From Methylomonas sp. MK1 (GTDB taxonomy: Bacteria; Pseudomonadota; Gammaproteobacteria; Methylococcales; Methylomonadaceae): a stretch of 64,000 nucleotides of DNA. Position numbers and translations under genes: made by a program. This document shows positions 23,960 through 33,264 of this stretch, in pieces; positions within the stretch are counted from its first letter, which is position 1, and every line of letters begins with the position of its first letter. Where the stretch lies: NCBI RefSeq assembly GCF_000365425.1, contig NZ_AQOV01000002.1, forward strand, positions 1,480,188 through 1,544,187. The letters are read 5' to 3'. Below the pieces are notes generated by a model. That model searched no databases and was not told the origin of the DNA. It saw nothing but the letters and a program-made list of their open reading frames with translations.

Positions 23960-23967
23960 GAGTTCGG
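23960..23967. repeat. 8-bp target-site duplication, left copy
   Basis: GAGTTCGG directly precedes the left inverted repeat and is repeated exactly at 25330-25337, directly after the right one. An 8-bp duplication fits the IS256 family and implies a fairly recent insertion. Confidence 0.9.
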
Positions 23968-24686
23968 GAGGGTGTAAGAATTTTTGTGTAAACGGCCATT
24001 AGGCAGGAAACTGTCGTTCCTTAGAGGAGAAAAAATGACCGTATCAAAATCCATCCCGACCGAGCTGCTCGATACCTTGCTATCGGATTATCAAAAACCC
24101 GAAGACCTGATTGGCGAAAACGGCCTGTTGAAGCAGTTAACCAAGGCGCTGGTCGAGCGCGCGTTGGAAGCCGAAATGACCGAACATCTAGGCCACGCCA
24201 AGCATGACCCCATCACCAATTCCAGTGGCAATGCCCGTAATGGCAAGAGCCGAAAAAACCTCAAAGGCGACTTCGGCGAATTACCGATTGAGATTCCGCG
24301 TGACCGTCACGGCAGCTTCGAGCCGCAAATCGTCGCCAAACATCAAACGCGCTGGACAGGTTTCGACGACAAGATCATTTCACTGTACGCCCGCGGCCTG
24401 ACGGTGCGAGAAATCCAGAGTCATCTGGAAGAGCTGTATGGGACTGAGGTTTCGCCTTCGTTGATTTCCTCGGTCACCGACGCGGTAGCCGATGAAGTTA
24501 AAGCCTGGCAATCGCGGCCACTGGAACCGGTTTATCCCATTGTTTATCTTGACTGCATTCACGTCAAAGTGCGCGATACCGGTGCCGTGCGGGTCAAAGC
24601 CGTCTATCTGGCGATTGGTATCAATCTGAATGGCGAGAAGGAAGTCCTGGGGCTATGGATCGCCCAAACCGAAGGGGCTAAGTTCT

Positions 24687-24703
24687 ACCCAAAGGGCATA
24701 AAT
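24687..24703 (+). repeat. 17-bp insertion, copy 1 (ACCCAAAGGGCATAAAT)
   Basis: This stretch interrupts the codons for AKF-WLQVV in the transposase. Its reverse complement, with a single mismatch, is the second insertion at 25075-25091. With the shared flanks (T before, GGT after) the two form 21-base inverted repeats at 24686-24706 and 25072-25092. Confidence 0.9.
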
Positions 24704-25074
24704 GGTTACAGGTGGTGACCGAACTGAAAAATCGCGGCGTGCAGGACATTTTCATCGCCTGTGTCGATGGCCTGAAAGGTTTTCCCGAAGCCATTGAAAC
24801 CGTTTATCCGCAAACCGCCGTTCAGCTTTGCATCGTCCATCTAGTGCGCAACAGCCTGAACTATGTCGGTTGGAAAATGCGCAAACGGATTGCCGATGAC
24901 CTCAAGCGGATTTATCAATCGGCTACCGTAGCAGAGGCCGAGCAGCAACTGGTTGAGTTCGAGGCACAATGGAACGGCGATTACCCTTCGATTGCCCAGA
25001 TATGGCGGCGTAATTGGAGCCGGATCATCCCGTTTTTCGACTATCCACCGGAAATACGCCGAATCATCTACACC

Positions 25075-25091
25075 ATTTATGCCCTGTGGGT
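25075..25091 (-). repeat. 17-bp insertion, copy 2, inverted (ACCCACAGGGCATAAAT on the minus strand)
   Basis: This stretch lies between the two threonine codons of the YTTNAIES segment of the transposase. On the minus strand it equals copy 1 except A to C at position 6. The transcript could pair the two copies into a 21-bp stem with one A-G mismatch and a 365-nt loop. Confidence 0.9.
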
Positions 25092-25329
25092 ACCAATGCC
25101 ATCGAGTCGGTCAATATGAGCCTTAGGAAAATCACTAAAAATCGTGGCTCTTTCCCCAATGACGAGGCATTATCGAAACTGTTTTATCTGGCGCTGATGA
25201 ATATCAGTAAAAAATGGACCATGCCCTTGCATGACTGGAAAGCCGCTTTAAATCGGTTTAGCATTCAGTTTGACGACCGGATGCCAAACCATTAATAAAC
25301 ACCGTTTACACAAAATTCAGGACACCCTC

Positions 25330-25337
25330 GAGTTCGG
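25330..25337. repeat. 8-bp target-site duplication, right copy
   Basis: GAGTTCGG, identical to 23960-23967. The about 190 bp that follow, up to the lipoprotein stop, hold no convincing gene. Confidence 0.9.
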
Positions 25338-32079: not shown

Positions 32080-33264
32080 TTAGCGGTCGGTACGTTTGTA
32101 TTCGACACGGCGGTTGTAGGCACGGCCTTCATCGGTTTCATTGGTATCGACCGGTTTGGACTCTCCGAAGCCAACCGCTGTCAGGCGCTTGCCTTCCACG
32201 CCTTGTTTGATCAGCTCGGCTTTGACCGCATTAGCTCTACGCTCCGACAGTTTTTGGTTGTAAGCATCCTTACCGTAACTATCGGTGTGGCCCTGAATCT
32301 CAATGGTCAAACCAGGGTTCATTTTCATCACTTCTACGGCGTTTTGGATCAGTGGGCCGTATTTGGCTTTGACGTCAGATTTGTCGAAATCGAATAACAA
32401 GCCGCGAAATGCCCAGCAACCGTCTTTATCGACGATGGCACCTTTAGGGGTGTCAGGGCATTTGTCCACACAGTTGCTTACGCCATCTTTGTCGTCGTCT
32501 TGTGTCGAACAATCTGCCGCTTTTGGTGTACCCGCTTTCAGGAACAAGTTTTTAACAAAATCGCTCATGCCTTTCGGATTGGAAATGGCATCTGCAGTGG
32601 TCGAGAATCCGCAACCGGATGCGTTAGCCAAGTCTTGCAGCACCGTTTGACCTGCGGCATCTTCGTCATTGCCGACCCAAACTGTATAAATGCACAGCTT
32701 GTCCCCGTATTGGGATTTAAGCGCTTCGGCAGTTGGTAGGGGCGAGACTTCCTCGATACCATCACTAAAAACGATTAAGGCAATATTGCCGGGAGCAGAG
32801 GCGATATCTTTGCCGGAATCGCTTAACGCAGTGGCCAGTGGTGTGCCGCCGCTAGAGCATTCGAGAGAAGTAATCGCACTTTCGAAACCGGCTGGTGTGT
32901 AATTCTGCACGGCTTGATTGAGATAAGTCGAGCCCCATGATAGGCATGGACCAAAACCGAAGCTGCGTAGACCGGATGTCAGCGGCATGACCGGAATGGA
33001 TTTGTTAAACTTGTTGAGCAGATTTTTTTCGACATCCAGCTTGGTGCCACTGTAATCGGTAGAATTTACATAGGTACGGCTCATTGATGACGATGAATCA
33101 TTAACCACGAAAAAGCTGTTGGTTTTTTGTACCAGTTTTCCGGATTTAACCAGTGCGTTAAGGTCTTCAGGCTGGAAGGCCTGGAAATTATTGCTCGACT
33201 GCGTCGCGCAACCGGAAAGCAGCGCTCCGGCCAGAGTGGCCGTGAATAAAAGGTTTCTTTTCAT
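32080..33264 (-). CDS. OmpA-family lipoprotein with a von Willebrand factor A domain
   Basis: 394 residues. The lipoprotein leader ends at LLSGC (Cys19). Residues about 50-245 form a vWA domain with a MIDAS motif (NDSSSSM) and later metal-site residues (GGTPLATAL and FSDGIEE). A short thrombospondin-3-like calcium stretch (DDDKDGVSNCVDKCPDTPKGA) is followed by an OmpA-type peptidoglycan-binding domain (about 290-394; IEIQGHTDSYG, LSERRANAV, GRAYNRRVE). GGAGA precedes ATG 33264. The architecture suggests a protein anchored to outer membrane and cell wall that binds another protein through its vWA domain; the partner is unknown. Confidence 0.88.
   Translation of the reverse strand: MKRNLLFTATLAGALLSGCATQSSNNFQAFQPEDLNALVKSGKLVQKTNSFFVVNDSSSSMSRTYVNSTDYSGTKLDVEKNLLNKFNKSIPVMPLTSGLRSFGFGPCLSWGSTYLNQAVQNYTPAGFESAITSLECSSGGTPLATALSDSGKDIASAPGNIALIVFSDGIEEVSPLPTAEALKSQYGDKLCIYTVWVGNDEDAAGQTVLQDLANASGCGFSTTADAISNPKGMSDFVKNLFLKAGTPKAADCSTQDDDKDGVSNCVDKCPDTPKGAIVDKDGCWAFRGLLFDFDKSDVKAKYGPLIQNAVEVMKMNPGLTIEIQGHTDSYGKDAYNQKLSERRANAVKAELIKQGVEGKRLTAVGFGESKPVDTNETDEGRAYNRRVEYKRTDR

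Follow-up and report, generated by a model that had tools for sequence, protein, structure and literature searches.

How did one transposase gene come to be broken twice by the same 17 bp? In the window, the 64,000-nucleotide stretch of the Methylomonas sp. MK1 genome analysed here, an IS256-type element contains ACCCAAAGGGCATAAAT at 24687-24703 on the plus strand and ACCCACAGGGCATAAAT at 25075-25091 on the minus strand, in the register of an earlier reading made from the sequence alone. Both inserts lie where that reading placed them, and each has, as it reported, a T before it and GGT after it in its own orientation. It offered three explanations: insertion of a very small mobile unit, scars left by the excision of a larger element, or a signal for translational bypass or splicing in which the two inverted copies could pair.

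The two inserts and the unit they share

The 17-bp length given by the sequence-only reading is real, but its register is one base off: the unit is YTTRTGCCCNNNGGGTA. These boundaries are fixed by two sites elsewhere, sites 59 (L264, GCGC^TCAG) and 63 (L267, GGCC^AATC), both of which have empty homologues and no microhomology at the junctions. In this register the locus contains the following features.

23968-25329, plus strand: IS256-type element, with intact terminal inverted repeats at 23968-23995 and 25302-25329
23960-23967, no strand: left 8-bp target duplication GAGTTCGG, intact
25330-25337, no strand: right 8-bp target duplication GAGTTCGG, intact
24035-25295, plus strand: IS256-type transposase gene, its frame changed at both units; Transposase_mut is found on two pieces searched separately
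24686-24702, minus strand: 17-bp unit, copy 1, with foot TTTA and hairpin TGCCC-TTT-GGGTA, inserted at AACCA^GAAC
25076-25092, plus strand: 17-bp unit, copy 2, with foot TTTA and hairpin TGCCC-TGT-GGGTA, inserted at CACCA^CCAA

The intact ends and target duplications agree with the earlier account, as does the underlying 408-codon frame, which is found as an intact 408-aa frame in relatives from G026, G025 and G007. Where the inserts are lacking, the flanks close up: around copy 1 they abut at distance 0 in all 30 unoccupied matching places, and around copy 2 in 27 of 29, with a distance of -1 in the other two; the fetched loci overlap in part, and these places are not all independent copies. 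In an alignment of IS256 copies, as the sequence-only reading had proposed (26 rows, of which two are duplicates, one of the window copy and one of a G004 copy), the insert at site 1 is present in the window copy only, and that at site 2 in the window copy and one copy from G004. The nucleotide at copy 2 is occupied in the MK1 genome (G000) and in G004, whereas the G026 copies, which are closer (92%), have no unit there; unless one unit was precisely lost, this nucleotide was struck twice.

The unit reads YTTR-TGCCC-NNN-GGGTA, a 4-nt foot beside a small hairpin whose loop varies; in some copies the loop has 4 nt, giving a length of 18 bp. The feet are TTTA, CTTG, CTTA and TTTG, of which TTTA and CTTG are commonest in the genus and CTTA is typical of a 54-bp composite repeat described below. 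Loops in the genus are mostly TGT or TTT, in a sample that was fetched in part with a T-N-T pattern. The isolated DNA hairpin is weakly stable, at -1.3 kcal/mol, a value matched by 28 and 14 of 200 shuffles. The foot and the base following are not independent: with duplicates removed, the following base is C in none of 27 copies whose first base is C and in 22 of 42 whose first base is T (Fisher p 9e-7, a value that ignores relatedness). A search of 10 loci against Rfam returned no gathering-score match over the unit, and only far sub-threshold matches to sca_ncR27 over the 54-bp repeat.

That the two inserts share their sequence beyond chance, as the first reading argued, is borne out by copy number. 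In the MK1 genome 20 places match the pattern at up to 2 mismatches, and 2 match its reverse; TTRTGCCCNNNGGGTA at up to one mismatch has 24 matches, of which 21 are exact 16-mers and 3 differ at one base, and its control has 7. The copies show little decay, 21 units being exact beside the 3 with one mismatch. The search of relatives that the first reading suggested gave 323 exact copies of YTTRTGCCCNNNGGGTA in Methylomonas, spread over 27 of 37 genomes with counts of 0 to 27 per genome; the reversed control gave 0. Within the window a third match to the pattern, at 32675-32691, has 3 mismatches and is probably due to chance.

Insertion sites and interrupted genes

We analysed 80 distinct genus sites, drawn from the fetched loci rather than from all 323 copies and with fetch patterns that favour T-N-T loops. 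The flanks of each unit were searched separately, and homologues were taken from among the fetched loci; an earlier pass covered 77 copies. An unoccupied homologue was found for 26 of the 80 sites. At 25 of these the flanks abut at distance 0, with no loss or duplication; the one remaining site lies in a run of A and gives a distance of 1, and a few extra matching places give -1. The inserts at the compared sites are single units of 17 bp, rarely 18 bp where the loop has 4 nt. The target duplication expected on insertion of a MITE of a DDE element is absent at the compared sites, whereas insertion without duplication after a short motif, as in the IS200/IS605 type, is observed at 25 of the 26. 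Of the three explanations first offered, the very small mobile unit is the one that the 323 genus copies and the clean insertions support, and we consider it very likely that the unit is a discrete 17-bp insertion unit.

Insertion mostly follows a short motif, [not A]-Y-A^. At 42 sites in transposase or RAYT genes, position -3 is never A, -2 is a pyrimidine in 41 and -1 is A in 34 (CA 22, TA 12, CT 4). At the 36 other sites, -2 is a pyrimidine in 33, and -1 is A in 14, C in 13, T in 7 and G in 2; the sites were assigned to groups by hand, and the intergenic group includes one TnpB_IS66 site (L124). The unit's own end, GTA^, is an instance of the target motif [not A]-Y-A^, and tandem copies begin exactly at GTA^ (L270, L271, seven in L162, and two with a cut third in L201). 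The T^GGT site proposed earlier is true of both IS256 inserts, but GGT is not needed across the family; the site equals [not A]-Y-A^ on the other strand.

Units are inserted in either orientation, and inverted pairs within 160 bp form a minority of the fetched copies. Lagging-strand copies number 24 of 39 in two genomes, a weak bias. At intergenic targets, positions -4 to -2 are more paired than in controls (unpaired fractions 0.24/0.20/0.32 versus 0.50/0.49/0.51). Over all 79 sites, -3 is paired across the site in 22, versus 91 of 632 controls, and a loop-spanning rank test gives p=0.3. This 79-site signal stems from the intergenic group and the transposase sites are not significant, so we do not regard hairpin targeting as a general rule.

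Twelve of the 21 exact copies in the MK1 genome lie in transposase or RAYT genes: two in IS256, four in IS21, two in IS5-like, one in IS630, two in IS3 and one in RAYT. One of the IS3 cases was recognised by eye only, and two of its pieces have no Pfam match. Across the genus, at least 35 of the 80 sites, by a hand tally that includes L315 below the curated cut-off, lie in a unit-reaching ORF with a transposase or RAYT domain (Pfam or custom profile). Most of the other sites look intergenic and are often in palindromes. Host-gene domains at other sites start some distance downstream of the unit (for example AMP-binding in L008, HsdM in L141 and UreE in L074), and a match in glmS (L140) is read as native coding sequence, not as an insertion, from its place in the SIS/GATase protein. 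Two units per gene are found in the transposases of L046, L071, L266 and L330 and in the RAYT gene of L267, and a frame-broken IS5-like stretch in L260 has four (by eye). In the RAYT genes of G000, G005, G011 and G020 the unit has entered at a single position, immediately 5' of a TGG codon (by eye); in G013:C1 (L126, L321, L333), 4 of 6 units are in RAYT genes. Also by eye, two inverted Rhs/YD-repeat stretches (L011 and L012, G000:C1:1646625 and 1647359) have an 18-bp unit whose loop is 4 nt long, and an IS3 orfB-like gene (L003, about 1450-1520) contains another hairpin element of about 50 bp with a 17-bp unit near its edge.

How the unit may move

Our preferred reading, with a probability of roughly 0.55, is that of a discrete 17-bp mobile unit, resembling a minimal REP, that moves as a single strand. 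The unit would be excised by a cut 3' of YA (or CT, CC) at its left border and a second cut at its own GTA end, and the freed strand would be joined into a target cut alike, as by HUH enzymes of the TnpA-Y1/RAYT kind. The lack of duplication, the foot beside the hairpin, joining at CA, TA or CT and the shared end motif are plausibly the traces that TnpA-Y1 chemistry would leave. The apparent bias to transposase genes, RAYT genes and intergenic palindromes may arise because insertions elsewhere are lost or because these places are preferred. For the narrower proposition that a REP-like single-strand mechanism moves the unit, we put the odds at about even.

REPs, which are tagged GTAG or CGTC and associated with TnpA-REP (RAYT), are like the unit in having a short palindrome, an unpaired 4-nt tag at one end and many dispersed copies. 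They are longer, 20-40 bp against 17-18 bp; the unit has the high copy number and a palindrome, though with a weak stem, its tag is YTTR, and it has clean empty sites in many transposase genes. Among the Y1 genes in the fetched loci, no cognate flanked RAYT was seen for the unit. Published work places REPs inside genes, with one subclass inside tnpA-REP genes (PMC3733652, PMC6006769), and describes TnpA-REP enzymes that cut at CT or CA, the foot determining the choice (PMC8266576). REPINs, which are inverted REP doublets thought to be moved by RAYT, are likewise miniature, non-coding and multi-copy; one paper argues that REP doublets are mobile and singlets immobile remnants (PMC3116915). Here, in contrast, many singlets, identical outside the loop, have clean insertion sites, and the doublet is not the prevailing form.

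The ends of IS200/IS605 elements and their small derivatives have hairpins and a foot that selects the cut site, and they are joined after a fixed short motif without duplicating the target; the 17-bp unit is similar in these respects but differs in having no left/right end pair, body or tnpA. Neisseria dRS3 is an inverted repeat of about 20 bp with a variable middle and hundreds of copies. The unit is alike in all three respects but different in sequence, and we know of no exact insertion sites of dRS3 in transposase genes. In the titles and abstract openings searched, a scope with preprints and most subscription papers outside it, no 17-bp unit of such kind is named. Clean insertion sites of REP-like hairpins are rarely available, which has made it difficult to settle how such hairpins spread. 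With two dozen clean insertions matched by empty homologues, and with cultured methanotrophs in its genus, the unit makes the matter directly testable. Units this small are candidates for the smallest mobile DNA and would lower the size limit of mobile DNA; their insertion also inactivates transposase and RAYT genes, an effect of which we found no earlier description.

The neighbourhood of the units was searched for a moving enzyme. The Y1/RAYT genes of the MK1 genome were set aside as a source, since no unit lies within about 1.5 kb of its ten Y1 matches; its RAYTs carry other palindromes (by eye). A RAYT profile run over the ORFs of the fetched loci places units inside several RAYT genes, and a few exact units have a Y1 gene at a distance of roughly 140 to 1100 bp, but no REPtron-like link of the unit to a Y1/RAYT gene was seen among the Y1 genes of these loci. 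In G008 a broken RAYT gene is bracketed by two inverted copies of a longer repeat, CCGAGCATCGCAGCT-unit-TTTGG (L276 2040-3516), which also occurs in L319, L325 (G025) and L214. Because this repeat is found elsewhere, in G025 and another bacterium, we do not read the arrangement as a REPtron; GTAG-type palindromes are closer to the gene than the units. Y1 matches do not track unit counts: the draft genome G104 has 197 units and one partial Y1 match, G011 has 20 units and two weak matches, and G030 has no unit and 10 matches. Among recurrent neighbour genes, the largest ORF clusters are transposases, RAYTs and unannotated repeat-derived frames, from which no enzyme was named. A bolder account, in which the 17-bp hairpin itself transposes as the smallest mobile unit known, would have it moved in trans by an enzyme other than the known RAYTs, prefer transposase and RAYT genes and hairpin palindromes, act as a brake on other mobile elements and have entered unrelated phyla (Desulfobulbales, Spirochaetota, Geobacter and Bacillaceae); we think this rather unlikely.

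The unit could instead be what is left of a larger element, either a solo end or an excision scar, with the foot and hairpin arm from one end, GGGTA from the other and the body lost. In G104 and in several unrelated lineages it does occur as the 3' portion of a 54-bp two-hairpin repeat, and its loop varies as a junction might. However, the size difference from empty homologues is exactly 17 or 18 bp, the loops in the genus (partly fetched as T-N-T) are mostly of two sequences, and no larger element with both ends was noticed in an incidental view of the fetched loci. The scar option of the sequence-only reading has no direct support, although the 54-bp composite containing the unit exists in relatives, and is an unlikely one. 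Capture of a short hairpin oligonucleotide at blunt breaks by end joining, with the breaks setting the positions and no dedicated transposase, would accord with junctions without duplication or loss, with insertions in palindromes and with enzyme searches that found none. We judge it quite improbable, as a fixed sequence with constant ends, hundreds of copies, the YA target and the reuse of a nucleotide would need a specific source and a specificity of their own.

It is very doubtful that the unit is a host device that targets transposase and RAYT genes in order to disable mobile elements. The share of genus sites in such ORFs, the genes with two units (L046, L071, L266, L267, L330) and the RAYT hits in G013 would suit it, but many other sites are intergenic, and survivorship alone predicts that visible gene hits will be in dispensable mobile genes. 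Moreover, three IS21 copies with the unit in the MK1 genome are 99.96% alike over about 2.46 kb and have different flanks, indicating that unit-bearing copies moved. IS21 also provides what favours a translational bypass or RNA splicing signal, with the genes still working: three copies, up to about 8% apart, have one common unit site. Counted by codon position, changes upstream of the unit are 21/2/59, 23/8/67 and 21/8/55; those downstream, taken in the original frame, are 2/0/6, 1/0/5 and 3/0/7 (the first of each set from the diverged pair L013-L020). This pattern is suggestive of function kept despite the unit, but the numbers downstream are low and not mutually independent, and a 505-aa relative (P0001), full-length by size, has 93% identity, so that the third-position pattern can predate the insertions. 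It can be explained by mobilisation in trans or earlier divergence, and we do not claim bypass. Units in both orientations, intergenic copies, lengths of 17 and 18 bp and several units per gene make such a signal extremely unlikely, and same-orientation pairs in the transposase genes of L046 and L071 indicate that pairing of inverted copies is not general.

Longer repeats and occurrence beyond the genus

The 54-bp two-hairpin repeat consists of 37 bp with GAGCAGCTTGTCTGCTC and a CTTA-type unit as its 3' part, and is often tandem. It is found in G104, Desulfobulbales, Desulfobacterales and tubeworm symbionts (L284-L313, L152, L174, L189, L190, L199, L200, L206, L245, L263). In a draw from the order, the unit is present in 118 of 301 genomes, with a maximum of 197 copies (G104) and about 10 control hits in total. 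Of 398 genomes drawn from the phylum, with MK1 as the sole member of the order among them, MK1 alone has the T-N-T-loop form. A wider contig collection has at least 119 pattern stretches among the matches listed; a similar number is estimated by chance collection-wide, so single matches mean little. The 35 stretches in viral contigs are, by estimate rather than computation, not above chance, and a viral origin was rejected.

Several copies per organism are present outside the order in Desulfobulbales C14-07, Desulfobacterales LH_M18, Spirochaetota Nl494_bin20, Geobacter, Alkalibacillus, Allobacillus and Kroppenstedtia, usually within those organisms' own repeats. In halophilic Bacillaceae (L147, L154, L159, L167, L170, L172, L183, L205, L208, L228, L234) the unit has a constant position inside longer repeats, and a match to the Bacillaceae-1 RNA (RF01690) lies about 100 bp from the unit in L159 and farther in L170. 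In a Spirochaetota MAG (L252, L186), several copies share a single position within a CGTCATTGCGAG repeat (CGTCATTG^unit^CGAG).
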